A stretch of 64,000 nt of DNA from Sulfuricurvum sp. (GTDB taxonomy: Bacteria; Campylobacterota; Campylobacteria; Campylobacterales; Sulfurimonadaceae). Below, piece after piece: positions 16,451 to 60,556 of the stretch (positions are counted from its first letter, which is position 1; each line of letters opens with the position of its first letter). A program made the position numbers and the translations under genes. Under the pieces are notes generated by a model. It ran no database searches and was not told where the DNA came from. It saw nothing but the letters and a program-made list of their open reading frames with translations. The DNA lies in contig NZ_JAQTUH010000007.1 of NCBI RefSeq assembly GCF_028710345.1, forward strand, positions 62,001-126,000, in the 5' to 3' direction.

Positions 16451-16587
16451 TCGATACAGCATTTGCAGAGCGTTTCGCCCATGAGTGGGTCGAGGCGTGG
16501 AACAGTCATGATTTGAGTGCGGTTTTATCGTATTACAGTGATGATTTGCCTCGCTCCCAATCTCTAGCTTGGGAGCGTATATGTTAG
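16447..16587 (+). pseudogene. NTF2/SnoaL-like gene truncated by a REP element
   Basis: The frame opens MIDTAFAERFAHEWVEAWNS and continues HDLSAVLSYYSDDL, the standard N-terminus of nuclear transport factor 2-like (SnoaL) proteins, where the helix EWVEAWNSHDLxxVLxxYSDD leads into the sheet. After about 34 residues the frame enters the REP element at 16551 and ends at TAG at 16585-16587. The remaining roughly 90 residues of the fold are missing. The start overlaps the stop of the HD-GYP gene (ATGA), so this was the last gene of the ODP-kinase-regulator operon before a rearrangement. Confidence 0.75.
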
Positions 16588-16622
16588 TTTGCATTCCCAA
16601 CGAGGACGTTGGGAACGAGGGA
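16551..16622. repeat. REP/BIME pair (family 1)
   Basis: Two imperfect palindromes face each other: TCGCTCCCAATCTCTAGCTTGGGAGCG and CATTCCCAACGAGGACGTTGGGAACGAGG. CTCG stands at the outer edge of both. The same module recurs at 45399-45471, 58244-58338 and 59221-59295, beside the RAYT transposase at 59329. Here it marks the breakpoint of the NTF2-like gene. Confidence 0.85.
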
Positions 16623-55626: not shown

Positions 55627-56742
55627 ATGCAATGCGATTATTTCGGTATTTGTGGCAGTTGTAGGATTTATGAATCAGGGTATCATGGACAACTGAGCTC
55701 TAAAACAGAAGAAATAGAAGAACATTTTTCCCCTTATTTCAGTGGTAAAATTGGTATATTTGAGTCCAAAGAGGAGCATTATCGCTCTCGCGCCGAGTTT
55801 AAAGTCTATCATGATGATGAGGGGTCGTTTTATGCGATGAATCGTGCTGATAAGCAAGGGGTAGTGAAAATCTCCTCATGTTCCATCGTCCATGAGAATA
55901 TTGCCCGTGTTATGCAACCATTACTGGAATCTATTCGCTCAGCCGGTATTGCTCATAAACTTTTCGGGATTGATTTTCTCACCAGTAGTAGCGGTGAAGT
56001 GTTGGCTACACTGATTTATCACAAAGCACTGGATGAGTCATGGAGTGTGAGTGCTCGTGAAATCGAATCCAAATTAGGTATATTTATCATCGGACGAAGC
56101 CGTAAACAAAAGATTGTATTGACCCAAGATTACGTCACCGAGACTTTGCATATTTTTGGACGAGATTACCGTTATATCCACATCGAAAACAGTTTTACTC
56201 AGCCTAATGCACTCGTTAATGAAAAGATGATTTCATGGTCGATGGAGCAGCTAGAAGGTGTTGGGGGAGATTTGCTTGAACTTTATTGCGGTGCAGGGAA
56301 TTTTACTATCCCCTTTGCTACAAAATTTGATCGCGTTTTGGCAACAGAAATTTCCAAAGCCTCGATTAGTGCCGCAAAACGGAATATGGAACTCAATGGG
56401 GTAAGTAATATCGATTTTGTTCGCCTATCTGCCGAAGAGTTTACTCAAGCACTCGATGGAACACGCGAATTTCGTCGGCTAGAGGGATTAAAAGTTGCCG
56501 ATTATCACTTAAAAACCCTTTTCGTCGATCCACCTCGCGCAGGTTTGGGAGAAGAACCGTGTGCCTTTGCCGCGCGGTTCGATCATCTCCTCTACATTTC
56601 CTGTAATCCCGAAACACTGTTGCGCGATTTAGAACTTCTAAGCCAAACACATGAGGTAACAGCGATGGCACTGTTTGATCAATTTCCCTATACCCACCAT
56701 TTGGAAATGGGGGTCAAATTGACTCGTAAGGGGCATTTATGA
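55627..56742 (+). CDS. trmA: tRNA (uracil-5-)-methyltransferase TrmA
   Basis: A 371-residue SAM-dependent RNA methyltransferase. The N-terminus MQCDYFGICGSCRIYESGY resembles TrmA of Campylobacterota. The SAM motif is LLELYCGAGNFTIPFA, and the catalytic Cys is in YISCNPETL after FVDPPRAGL. It makes m5U54 in the T loop. A GGAG lies before the ATG; it follows fliP by 9 bp and its stop overlaps the next start. Confidence 0.9.
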   Translation: MQCDYFGICGSCRIYESGYHGQLSSKTEEIEEHFSPYFSGKIGIFESKEEHYRSRAEFKVYHDDEGSFYAMNRADKQGVVKISSCSIVHENIARVMQPLLESIRSAGIAHKLFGIDFLTSSSGEVLATLIYHKALDESWSVSAREIESKLGIFIIGRSRKQKIVLTQDYVTETLHIFGRDYRYIHIENSFTQPNALVNEKMISWSMEQLEGVGGDLLELYCGAGNFTIPFATKFDRVLATEISKASISAAKRNMELNGVSNIDFVRLSAEEFTQALDGTREFRRLEGLKVADYHLKTLFVDPPRAGLGEEPCAFAARFDHLLYISCNPETLLRDLELLSQTHEVTAMALFDQFPYTHHLEMGVKLTRKGHL

Positions 56743-58121
56743 GAATACTATTGCTTTCATTGTGTACTGCAAGTTTGTTGTGTGCAACGACAAACGATCC
56801 CCAAGCTATTTTGGGGGAAGTGACTAAACTACGTCAAAAATATGAAGAGTGCCGAACATCATTGGAGAGTGGGAACGGTAACTCTAAAACACTCCAAGAG
56901 TACAGTAAAAAAAATAAGTCACTTGAACTAGAATTGTCCCAAAAAAATGGAGTTATCAAAAGTTTAGAACAAACCCTTACGGCACGTGATCGTGCCTTGC
57001 GTGAAACCACTGAGAAAAATAAAAATCTAATCTCACAGCTCCATAGCGATAAAGTCTCTTTTCAAGAGCGCGAAATGCTTAAACGCTCTTTAGTTACTGC
57101 CAAAACAGAGCTTGCCGAAGCGCAAAAAGCTCTCAAACAAGCTGGAACAGCTAAAGTCGTCTATAAAGACCATCCCGTGACAACGGAAAAGATTGTGGAA
57201 AAAATCGTCTACAAAGATCGTCCTGTAGTTACCGAAAAAATTGTAACTAAAACAGGTGAATACACTGAAAAACTTAACCAGTTGCAACGTGAACTCGAAT
57301 CGGCACACGCAACGATTGCCAATCTCAAAGCATCTTCTAAATCACCGCTCAAAGAAAAAATAGTCGAGAAAGTGGTGTATAAAGATCGTATTGTTGAAAA
57401 AGTGGTGTATAAAGACAAGCCGATTGAGAAACCCAAAGTGGTTGAAAAAGTAGTCTATAAAGATCGCCCTCAAGAGAAAATTGTAGAGAAAGTAGTTTAT
57501 AAAGAGAAACCGATCGAAAAACCTAAAAATATTGATAAGCTAAAACCTGTAGAAAAACCTGTTGCCAAAGTGGAACAACTCTCCCCAAAACCTAAAACTA
57601 TTGATAAACTCAAAGTTAACGGAAAAATAGTTACCGATGAAGAGGGGGGTGTATTTAACCCCAAAACAAAAACTGTTATTCATGCGCAGGCAATTACTCC
57701 ACAAATACCGCTTCCATCAAAACCACAATCCCCTGTAAAAGGTTTGGAGGATGAGAGACAACGCCAAATTGATAAGTTAGCTTTGGAACGTGAACGTTTG
57801 CTTGCTCATCAAACCCCTGTTGCTAAACCGCAACCGCAACAACCGCCTGTGGTTTCTAAAGAAGCTGTCTCTTCGGCAGTAAAAACATCATCTTCTACTG
57901 TAAAGCGAAGTACCCCATCCGCTTATCGTATGGCAACTAATGCCGGTATTTATAACGCTATTAACGGAACAAAAATCGATATGTGGGAGTCAGGACGTTC
58001 ATTTACCTCAGGCACAGCAAATAATGGCTGGGTAAAGATTACGGGGTACTTTGTGAATCGTGTGTGGACGAGAGCGGATGAAGAGTTGTGGGTAAAAGAG
58101 AGTGACGTTATCAAACGATAG
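56739..58121 (+). CDS. Periplasmic coiled-coil protein with VVYKD repeats and SH3-like C-terminus
   Basis: A 460-residue protein: signal peptide (MRILLLSLCTASLLCA), a coiled coil (about residues 25-130), a region with at least eight EKVVYKD/EKIVYKD units, several joined to KPIEKPK, then a Pro/Lys-rich part, and a C-terminal SH3-like domain (GIYNAINGTKIDMWESGRSF, WVKITGYFVNRVWTRADEEL). The plan suggests an envelope-spanning spacer with a cell-wall-binding end. Its stop codon region (KESDVIKR-stop) is duplicated after the RAYT gene at 59910-59936, which shows where the RAYT segment was inserted. Confidence 0.75.
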   Translation: MRILLLSLCTASLLCATTNDPQAILGEVTKLRQKYEECRTSLESGNGNSKTLQEYSKKNKSLELELSQKNGVIKSLEQTLTARDRALRETTEKNKNLISQLHSDKVSFQEREMLKRSLVTAKTELAEAQKALKQAGTAKVVYKDHPVTTEKIVEKIVYKDRPVVTEKIVTKTGEYTEKLNQLQRELESAHATIANLKASSKSPLKEKIVEKVVYKDRIVEKVVYKDKPIEKPKVVEKVVYKDRPQEKIVEKVVYKEKPIEKPKNIDKLKPVEKPVAKVEQLSPKPKTIDKLKVNGKIVTDEEGGVFNPKTKTVIHAQAITPQIPLPSKPQSPVKGLEDERQRQIDKLALERERLLAHQTPVAKPQPQQPPVVSKEAVSSAVKTSSSTVKRSTPSAYRMATNAGIYNAINGTKIDMWESGRSFTSGTANNGWVKITGYFVNRVWTRADEELWVKESDVIKR

Positions 58122-58134
58122 CTTTAAAACCCAT
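58095..58134 (+). repeat. 40-bp direct repeat, left copy
   Basis: It covers the last codons of the coiled-coil gene and 13 bp beyond. It matches 59910-59949 at 39 of 40 positions (C at 58122 against G at 59937). Confidence 0.85.
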
Positions 58135-58137
58135 TAC

Positions 58138-58168
58138 TCGTTCCCAACGTCCTCGTTGGGAATGCATA
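58138..58168. repeat. Single REP (family 1)
   Basis: TCGTTCCCAACGTCCTCGTTGGGAATGCA, the second-half unit of the BIME, immediately after the left 40-bp repeat. Confidence 0.85.
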
Positions 58169-58243
58169 CATCAATTTTATCCCCTCTAAAGCTATAAATC
58201 ATTATCATCTTTTAACAAATAAAAATAGATGGTGATTTTTCCC

Positions 58244-58338
58244 CTTGTTCCCAACGTCCTCGTTGGGAATGCATAACGTCAGATAAAAGTTTAGTAACTA
58301 AAGGCTATACACTCCCAAACAGGAGTTTTGGAGCGAGT
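58244..58338. repeat. REP/BIME pair (family 1)
   Basis: TTGTTCCCAACGTCCTCGTTGGGAATGCA, a longer than usual spacer of about 35 nt, and CTATACACTCCCAAACAGGAGTTTTGGAGCGAG. Confidence 0.85.
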
Positions 58339-58353
58339 GAAAAGGAGTGCTGC

Positions 58354-59175
58354 ATGAAAATTTTATTTGGATTAATTATCGTTATTCTGACAGTGATAAA
58401 TCTTGATTTGCTAGGACCTGTGTTGATATCCTACTGGCTTACAATTCTTTTGATATTCATAGCAATCAATGCAACCTATTTTTTTGTTGCTACTAATTCT
58501 CACAAACCGTATTCTCCTGAACGTCGGAGTGTTTTGTTGGTCAGTAAATGGATTTTATATGCAGCTTGGATGTTTGTTGCTACCATTATTGCTTTTGTAC
58601 TTTTGCTTATGTCTGCTTCTAGGAATAGCACAGAAATTGGTATTGTTAAGATCGATAAAAGACTCAATGTTATAATGAAAGATAATGTTCCCTGTTTTTA
58701 TATCGATTCATCTAAAGAGATTGATGAGTTTGAAATTGGCTATATTGTTGGATTTAAATACATAAAGATTAAGGATTCTTACTTTTATGAAGATACTTGG
58801 AGAGTTACACACTATAAGTTAAAGCTTCATATTCCCTTAACTTCGATTGTGGGCAAGGATCAGTGTATACCATATGGGTTAAATAATGAGATTCATACCA
58901 AAGAGCATAAAAAATTAGAAACAAATGTTCTATATAAAATAGCGATAAATGGAGTGAGAAAAGTTGGCGGTGTTGATCAAATAATGGCAGATTCATATTT
59001 TTATCTATCTAAAAATCCAAAAACGGGTAACAGTGAAATTAGTTTAGCTTCTCAGGAGCAAATCAATATTTTTGAGAAACACCTTATGCTAAAACTTTTT
59101 CCATCAGAAGATAATAATATCGTTAAAGAAACGGATGAATACAATAGTACCATAAAAACAAAGGATCAAAAATGA
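58354..59175 (+). CDS. Membrane protein of unknown function inside the RAYT segment
   Basis: A 273-residue protein with three N-terminal membrane helices (LFGLIIVILTVINLDLL; YWLTILLIFIAINATYFFV; WILYAAWMFVATIIAFVLLL) and a soluble C-terminal domain of about 165 residues. AAGGAG lies 8 nt before the ATG. AT-rich and without recognised motif. It is flanked on both sides by REP pairs, so it was carried in or trapped with the RAYT segment. Confidence 0.65.
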   Translation: MKILFGLIIVILTVINLDLLGPVLISYWLTILLIFIAINATYFFVATNSHKPYSPERRSVLLVSKWILYAAWMFVATIIAFVLLLMSASRNSTEIGIVKIDKRLNVIMKDNVPCFYIDSSKEIDEFEIGYIVGFKYIKIKDSYFYEDTWRVTHYKLKLHIPLTSIVGKDQCIPYGLNNEIHTKEHKKLETNVLYKIAINGVRKVGGVDQIMADSYFYLSKNPKTGNSEISLASQEQINIFEKHLMLKLFPSEDNNIVKETDEYNSTIKTKDQK

Positions 59176-59220
59176 GAAAATTAACATCCGGTGAAATAGG
59201 TATGTTGCAACAATATTTTT

Positions 59221-59295
59221 TCCTCGTTCCCAACGTCCTCGTTGGGAATGCAGACTAATGGCTATACATTCCCAAACTGGAGTTTGGGAGCGAGA
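59221..59295. repeat. REP/BIME pair (family 1), 34 bp upstream of the RAYT gene
   Basis: CCTCGTTCCCAACGTCCTCGTTGGGAATGCA and CATTCCCAAACTGGAGTTTGGGAGCGAG in head-to-head order. With the unit at 59876 it brackets the transposase gene. Confidence 0.88.
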
Positions 59296-59328
59296 GTGGG
59301 AATAATAATATAATTGGAGAATAAGACA

Positions 59329-59862
59329 ATGGGACGAAGCAGATATAAAATATATGAGCCGACACATCCTCATTTTATTACCTGCACGGTATTGCATTGG
59401 ATACCAATTTTCACCCGTACTGATAGTGTTCAAATACTGATTGATAGTCTTAACTATTTGAAAGAAGTTGATAATCTAAAAATCTATGCTTATGTGATTT
59501 TGGAAAACCATTTGCATATGATTATTCAAAGTGATGACCTTGATAACAGTATAAAAAAATTCAAAAGTTTCACTGCAAAAGAGATATTAAAACTACTCCA
59601 TACCCATAATGTCAAAATGATTCTCGATCAGTTAGCTTTTTATAAAAAAGCTCATAAAACAGATAGCAAATATCAACTATGGCAAGAAGGATCAGCTCCT
59701 AAGTTGATTCAAAGTGATGCTATGATGATTGAGCGAATAAACTATATTCATAATAACCCAGTAAAAAGAGGCTATGTGGATGAAGCGAAGTATTGGCGTT
59801 ACTCAAGTGCTAGAGATTATGAGGGAAACGAAGGGTTGATTGAGGTGGAGCGGTTTTGGTAG
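59329..59862 (+). CDS. REP-associated tyrosine transposase (RAYT, Y1 superfamily)
   Basis: A 177-residue single-strand DNA transposase of the TnpA-REP type. The HUH metal site is ENHLHMII (His61 and His63), the probable nucleophile is Tyr139 in INYIHNNPVKRGYV, and the family ending WRYSSARDYEG follows. RAYTs are domesticated relatives of IS200/IS605 TnpA that recognise a tetranucleotide beside a REP hairpin and are thought to spread REPs. The ATG at 59329 has GGAG 9 nt upstream; a TTG at 59314 would add five residues. REPs lie 34 bp before and 14 bp after the gene, the classic REPtron layout. Confidence 0.92.
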   Translation: MGRSRYKIYEPTHPHFITCTVLHWIPIFTRTDSVQILIDSLNYLKEVDNLKIYAYVILENHLHMIIQSDDLDNSIKKFKSFTAKEILKLLHTHNVKMILDQLAFYKKAHKTDSKYQLWQEGSAPKLIQSDAMMIERINYIHNNPVKRGYVDEAKYWRYSSARDYEGNEGLIEVERFW

Positions 59863-59875
59863 AGATTGTATATGA

Positions 59876-59911
59876 GTCTGCATTCCCAAGCTGGAGCTTG
59901 GGAACGAGGAA
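59876..59911. repeat. REP after the RAYT gene, chimeric
   Basis: GTCTGCATTCCCAAGCTGGAGCTTGGGAACGAGG has the outer arms of the CATTCCC unit but the AGCTGGAGCTT loop of the other unit, so it is a recombinant of the two types. Confidence 0.85.
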
Positions 59912-59949
59912 AGAGAGTGACGTTATCAAACGATAGGTTTAAAACCCAT
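59910..59949 (+). repeat. 40-bp direct repeat, right copy
   Basis: 39/40 identical to 58095-58134. The left part repeats the last eight codons and stop of the coiled-coil gene; the right part overlaps the last codons of the rhodanese gene on the minus strand. Confidence 0.85.
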
Positions 59950-60451
59950 CGTATGGTAATTTTGCCTCTTTCCATCCGAACATAAATCCGTTTTCGAGAT
60001 TATATGCTTTAATCCCCTCTTTAGCGAGAAGGTTGGCAGCAGCGCTTGAGCGTGGACCGCTTCGACAGACGAGAATGACGGCATCGACTTTACGCATTTT
60101 CATCGCCTTCATAACATCGGGAACGAAGTTTTGGTTGAAAACCTCTTTAGCATCGTAGAGTTTTTGGACATCTTTATGCTCTTTTGTTTTACTGGTTTTG
60201 ATCTCAAATTCCGAACTTTTTACCCTCTCTTCGATAGAGTGAGGTATATAGGTCCACTCATAAGCGGGAATATTGATAACCCCTTCACCATGACCGGTAT
60301 AAATATATTCAAGAGTAGTTCGAACATCGACGATAATCGCCGTCCCTTTTTTTTGCATCTCAAATGCTTCGGTTGCGGTGAGATCACCTTCATACACATC
60401 TTCAGCTCCAAGTGCCGCGCACATAAGCAAGATGAGCAGTAATTTCTTCAT
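59939..60451 (-). CDS. Exported rhodanese-like protein
   Basis: A 170-residue protein with a signal peptide (MKKLLLILLMCAALGAEDVY) and one rhodanese domain: LTATEAFEMQKKGTAIIVDV at its start and the active-site loop VILVCRSGPRSSAAANLLAK with the catalytic Cys. It may carry sulfane sulfur in the periplasm, which suits a sulfur-oxidising host. The ATG at 60451 is chosen for the signal peptide; a start at 60472 is possible. The last codons overlap the right 40-bp repeat. Confidence 0.88.
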   Translation of the reverse strand: MKKLLLILLMCAALGAEDVYEGDLTATEAFEMQKKGTAIIVDVRTTLEYIYTGHGEGVINIPAYEWTYIPHSIEERVKSSEFEIKTSKTKEHKDVQKLYDAKEVFNQNFVPDVMKAMKMRKVDAVILVCRSGPRSSAAANLLAKEGIKAYNLENGFMFGWKEAKLPYDGF

Positions 60452-60556
60452 GCATAAACTCCTAGTTACCAATTAATATCACAATTATATCTAAAAAGTG
60501 AATTAACATTAATAATGAAAAAATTGGGTATTATTTGAAAAAAGTGGTGAGAATCT

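Follow-up and report, generated by a model that had tools for sequence, protein, structure and literature searches.

REPtrons, the closest well-described systems, combine an HUH-Tyr protein carrying HLH and YIHxNP motifs (the RAYT) with inverted flanking palindromes and scattered doublets of the same palindromes (Nunvar 2010, PMC2817692; Bertels and Rainey 2011, PMC3116915; Corneloup 2021, PMC8266576). In published work RAYTs are treated as domesticated and without mobility; our search covered the open-access literature, and an earlier report of mobility may exist. TIRtrons, or TIRYT genes (Di Nocera 2013, PMC3733652), are RAYT-like genes between inverted repeats that are unrelated to GTAG REPs and in some cases make up repeat families; the part of that paper considered here mentions neither insertion events nor empty sites, and neither a target bias nor target duplications. 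IS200/IS605 elements have a related Y1 HUH transposase and palindromic ends, and make no larger target duplications (PMC2817692).

The window, i.e. the whole stretch of 64,000 nt that was analysed and to which all coordinates refer unless a contig or locus is named, contains a RAYT locus that shares with REPtrons the HUH-Tyr protein, both motifs, the inverted flanking palindromes and the scattered doublets. It differs from them in the feet of its palindromes, which are CTCG/CGAG and TGCA and not GTAG, and in that several units of its kind are found per genome, sharp-ended and with flanks that are unrelated. Its RAYT-like gene is bounded by inverted repeats of non-GTAG type, as in TIRtrons. The preliminary description of the locus had set its target duplication apart from the behaviour of IS200/IS605; this is right for the 40 bp found here and does not extend to the simple RAYT units of the clade, which insert without duplication. 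The unit is a RAYT element by profile and motifs, yet it lacks the GTAG tag, belongs to a multi-copy kind and is accompanied by a long duplication. It thus departs in defining features from classical REPtrons and from IS200/IS605 alike, and is, as judged from its sequence, a mobile element of the RAYT/TIRtron kind.

Composition of the inserted unit

The RAYT gene (59329..59862, plus strand) encodes, as had been proposed, a TnpA-REP transposase; its length is 177 aa. It scores 99.2 bits against NF047646, the NCBIfam model of the REP-associated tyrosine transposase (cut-off 80), with the HLH motif at 61-63 and the tyrosine at 139; H61, H63 and Y139 are near-invariant among 41 homologues. No solved structure was found to match it by sequence, and a search of plasmids gave distant RAYTs only. 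That the RAYT has a palindromic family of its own is borne out by the REP query CTCGTTCCCAAS, with 14 matches in the genome versus 0 for the reversed control. These nevertheless differ from classical REP palindromes: in the window and in 36 units the feet are CTCG/CGAG and TGCA, and the GTAG (GT[AG]G) tag is lacking at the REP foot.

The unit spans 1.8 kb, from the CTCG outer foot (58137) to the CGAG outer foot of the inverted REP (59908), in the order REP, 68-bp stretch, REPIN, passenger gene, REPIN, RAYT, REP. Its left end is the outer left REP (58137..58168, plus strand), with the CTCG foot outside and TGCA inside, the ends being set by the limits of pairwise homology. The 68-bp stretch that follows (58172..58239, plus strand) is 84% like a stretch elsewhere in the genome, at G000:C5:137330, also near a REP. 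Before the passenger gene lies a REP pair, or REPIN (58244..58337), with similar REPINs at C1:448575 and C8:12914. The passenger gene (58354..59175, plus strand) codes for 273 aa with N-terminal membrane segments; it has no Pfam or PADLOC match and a weak, sub-threshold match to NF045616, and no donor copy was found in the window's own genome. The RAYT lies between inverted REPs, namely a second REPIN (59223..59294), 34 nt before its start, and the outer right REP (59879..59908, plus strand), which is the right end of the unit, has its CGAG foot outside and starts 16 nt after the RAYT stop. Of the two spacings given in the preliminary description the first is correct and the second, 14 bp, is not. 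The best explanation of the segment is a composite mobile unit made of a RAYT and a passenger gene between two inverted REP palindromes. A RAYT with its REPs had been named as the thing that moved; what moved is a composite with cargo, the 273-aa gene having gone unmentioned.

The duplicated target and its empty sites

The unit is bracketed by the direct repeat already noted in the preliminary description, 40 nt long and identical at 39/40 positions (98%), with the left copy at 58095..58134 and the right copy at 59910..59949, 1815 apart. The chance expectation for such a pair is about 4e-12, and it is the sole repeat of its kind within the 64-kb window. Comparison with empty sites leaves a 2-nt filler, TA (58135..58136), between the left copy and the outer REP, and one nucleotide, G (59909..59909), between the end of the unit and the right copy. 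The left copy includes, as had been stated, the last codons of the upstream coiled-coil/SH3-like gene (56739..58121, plus strand; stop 58119-58121), whose C-terminus, WVKESDVIKR followed by the stop, is conserved in relatives. The right copy includes the last codons and stop (59939-59941) of the convergent rhodanese-like gene (59939..60472, minus strand), and the end and stop of this gene are present in both copies. Since the two 3' ends lie within the duplicated 40 bp, neither flanking gene has lost its end.

In eight same-genus genomes the repeat is single and the insert absent; this is the empty site that had been put forward as the test of insertion. The coiled-coil and rhodanese genes are directly joined through one copy in G002, G009, G011, G013 and G019; G008 has the same tail (AAAGAGAGTGACGTTATCAAACGATAGGTTTAATACCCATCG) despite a deletion of, or in, the coiled-coil gene; G015 and G016 have one copy and a short unrelated spacer. 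Thus the window segment is an insertion that duplicated its target. The relatives comprise one genome per species, several being metagenome assemblies. The converse arrangement, a bare 40-bp duplication without the RAYT segment, which the preliminary description held would speak against insertion, was seen in none of the relatives examined. The sole mismatch between the copies is a G in the right copy, likewise present in G008, so that the left copy probably mutated after the event.

In other genomes the same site holds 1 to 7 kb of unrelated sequence with no REP adjoining the junction and no repeat. The trmA/rhodanese site is thus a hotspot; no duplication was found at four REP-free inserts there.

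Simple RAYT units and long duplications elsewhere

Contig ends interrupt two or more additional RAYT copies in the window's genome: C8 and C17 have near-identical 5' parts, C7 and C14 near-identical 3' parts. Their flanks diverge at or near the REP feet, and a comparison of direct repeats gave no pairing across the gap for these contig-end copies. Searching species genomes returned 59 related loci, almost all from Campylobacterota. Two loci of one Sulfurovum MAG are 92.5% identical over 695 bp, from CTCG to CGAG, with nothing in common outside, and in many cross-genome pairs of RAYT loci homology ends at the CTCG/CGAG feet or no more than a few bases from them. The own-genome copies and the 695-bp Sulfurovum duplicate do not fit a RAYT that is single-copy and not self-mobile.

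The flanks of 36 units are biased. On the left they are pyrimidine/T-rich, with T at -3 in 26/36 (p 2.5e-7, binomial), and on the right purine/A-rich, with a purine at +2 in 33/36 (p 4.6e-8, binomial). No short target duplication was seen at the simple units (direct 4-nt repeats at the junctions, 0/36), and long repeats were found around none of about 30 simple units; duplication is therefore not the general outcome of RAYT insertion. Simple REP-RAYT-REP units are, on these comparisons, mobile across Campylobacterota, with sharp CTCG/CGAG ends, unrelated flanks, a biased target and no target duplication.

The repeat scan around RAYT genes covered 600 nt downstream at first and was then widened to 5 kb. 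The apparent uniqueness of the window case in the 600-nt scan was overturned by the 5-kb scan: long duplications recur, and the scar, called rare in the preliminary description, is not a one-off. In G009, another Sulfuricurvum, a RAYT and a homologue of the passenger gene (34%) form a REP-bounded insert at the 3' end of dgkA, within a perfect 25-bp repeat that contains the dgkA end and stop. The dgkA site is empty, with one copy and no insert, in at least 20 relatives, among them the window's own genome. In a third species (G012), a 3.74-kb insert containing membrane-protein genes and REPs lies at the trmA/rhodanese site within an 83-bp repeat (95%), the left copy of which is followed by one base and then by a REP. 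Its single-copy state was deduced from genomes where trmA directly meets the rhodanese gene, e.g. L029 and L036. No RAYT was found in the G012 genome, which indicates that a RAYT inside the insert is dispensable.

Two further cases are candidates; supporting single-copy relatives exist for three cases only (window, G009 and G012). Upstream of trxA in G007, a 46-bp repeat surrounds a RAYT and a DUF4160/DUF2442 pair; its right copy is native to trxA, and mnmG and trxA are unlinked in most relatives. At the 3' end of gatB (L064 3056-6608), a 77-bp direct repeat encloses a 3.4-kb insert that comprises a RAYT unit, a reverse transcriptase of retron type (PADLOC RT_III-A) and a partner ORF of 337 aa. 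The repeats of the window, G009, G007 and gatB score 25 to 62, versus a maximum of 14 for mismatched locus pairs taken as the null. Control loci totalling 401 kb yielded no comparable repeats except tandem pilin-like paralogues near priA. Other repeats were rejected as target duplications: those of L071 are the start of paralogous genes, and those of L084, L060 and L055 are REP clusters or tandem units. Separately, at L096 5908-7860, a 23-29 bp sequence that seems to come from the downstream gene's 3' end is present three times, its copies flanking in a row a RAYT fragment and a Fic gene.

Junctions and possible routes of insertion

The insert of the window has a junction of the RAYT type on its right only: its right junction stands at the 98th percentile of the target bias and its left junction at the 54th. 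Elsewhere high values were obtained, likewise for junctions at a REP foot, with the left junction of G012 (98th), the left junction of G007 (95th) and the right junction of gatB (89th), the values of the last two being somewhat flattered since these units belong to the set that defines the bias. The opposite junctions of the cargo inserts score poorly, as on the left in the window, or are without a REP; in G009 neither outer junction fits the bias well. One good junction of RAYT type and one poor one suggest that one join is made by the RAYT and the other by repair, after 25 to 83 nt of target have been copied.

We infer for the RAYT a catalytic role, and for the second join a step of extension and repair, as follows. 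The RAYT, an HUH-Tyr enzyme acting by single-strand cleavage, would join the right REP end to an A-rich target (GGGTA^AAAGAGAG). The 3' end of the target at the cut would be extended by about 40 nt by a host polymerase, and this extended end would then be sealed to the opposite end of the unit by host repair, with TA left behind as filler. Of the two repeat copies, the first would then be the newly made strand and the second the one already present. For one of the junctions, repair or template switching, both named in the preliminary description, would be our best guess. The reading as a whole, i.e. that a composite REP-bounded unit was inserted where two convergent genes meet, with a 40-bp duplication, the RAYT making one join and repair the other, is the one we prefer, at a probability somewhat above one half (about 0.55).

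The best surviving alternative, in our view unlikely, dispenses with RAYT catalysis: a replication fork would switch template through microhomology, copy a REP-rich donor and return 40 nt upstream, the REP hairpins serving as switch points. Filler bases, repeat lengths varying from 25 to 83 bp, the absence of a RAYT from G012 and a possible microhomology, AAAG, at the right junction (elsewhere in the genome RAYT right ends read GAGGAAAG) would all fit such switching. It does not account as well for inserts that end within 1-3 nt of the REP feet at most junctions examined, for the frequent match of one junction per insert to the target bias of RAYT units, or for the REP-free inserts that occupy the same site without repeats.

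We consider a little less probable again that replication slippage first made a tandem duplication of about 40 bp (with TAG as filler), into which the REP-bounded unit inserted cleanly at TTA^GAAA between the copies. Simple RAYT units do insert without duplication, the filler is split as TA, unit, G, and the site ACCCATTA|GAAAGAGA scores best in the reconstructed tandem, by a narrow margin. The tandem without insert is nevertheless found in no relative, and recurrence of the arrangement, which weakens this explanation, would require an exact prior tandem every time, of 25 and of 83 bp at the other sites.

It is improbable that another recombinase, acting in trans, places cargo islands at gene 3' ends through att repeats and that the REPs and the RAYT arrived later. 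The inserts do resemble genomic islands in that they carry accessory-type genes (a retron RT, a DUF4160/DUF2442 pair) and have flanking repeats that include gene 3' ends, restoring them as island attachment sites do. Unlike islands they share no att core, the repeats being unrelated in sequence between sites and 25 to 83 bp long; no integrase gene is among the listed ORFs of the window, G009 and G012 inserts; and REPs abut the repeats, the window unit being REP-bounded. A misjoining of the repeat copies by the assembler is highly improbable: other RAYT copies of the genome do break contigs (C7, C8, C14 and C17), but this insert is internal to a 189-kb contig, a single base distinguishes its repeat copies, overlaps of about 130 bp at contig ends imply that the k-mer exceeded the 40-bp repeat in length, and the same architecture is found in independent assemblies.

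To return to insertion by one RAYT join and one repair join, a broader proposal can be built on it, which we regard as tentative and would sooner bet against. The REP ends of Campylobacterota and the RAYT may form a one-ended gene-capture machine, in which one REP end is joined to a preferred target and the other end falls where the neighbouring DNA happens to end; accessory genes (immunity-like membrane proteins, the DUF4160/DUF2442 pair, the retron) would thereby be moved and duplications of 25-83 bp left at gene 3' ends. The similar 25- and 83-base duplications in two related species suggest a repeatable gene-moving route, and these insertion events suggest that RAYT/REP elements may transfer accessory genes between genomes. 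These loci bear on how REPs and RAYTs spread, since they provide insertion events with empty sites, exact ends, a target bias, a recurring scar and a multi-copy clade; they are also natural substrates for tests in vitro and in vivo.

REPs occur at other sites as well. The priA linker contains an in-frame REPIN of the same family as those of the unit (G000:C1:260823-260893, L125). In other genomes of the genus (L126-L144) the PriA linker holds different in-frame palindromic repeats, e.g. one coding SVRPEPVEGFMVRQAHHER; the linker is thus a landing pad for several palindrome families. The frdA/frdB spacer (G000:C4:169035-169110; L009, L155-L179) holds a REPIN, and various other palindromic repeats in relatives. 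Both sites, hypervariable and open to several palindrome families, offer no clean target and were rejected as empty-site controls. Within the window, at 16550-16620, a SnoaL-like ORF is truncated by a REPIN, with unrelated sequence beyond. The window's genome also has, at L119 1868-2511, a repeat of 69 bp that includes a gene 3' end and brackets a small gene beside a degenerate REP; the arrangement looks like a tandem gene remnant. At G000:C7:119-209, a 50-bp unit, which includes the REP on the right of a RAYT copy, forms a twofold tandem repeat.
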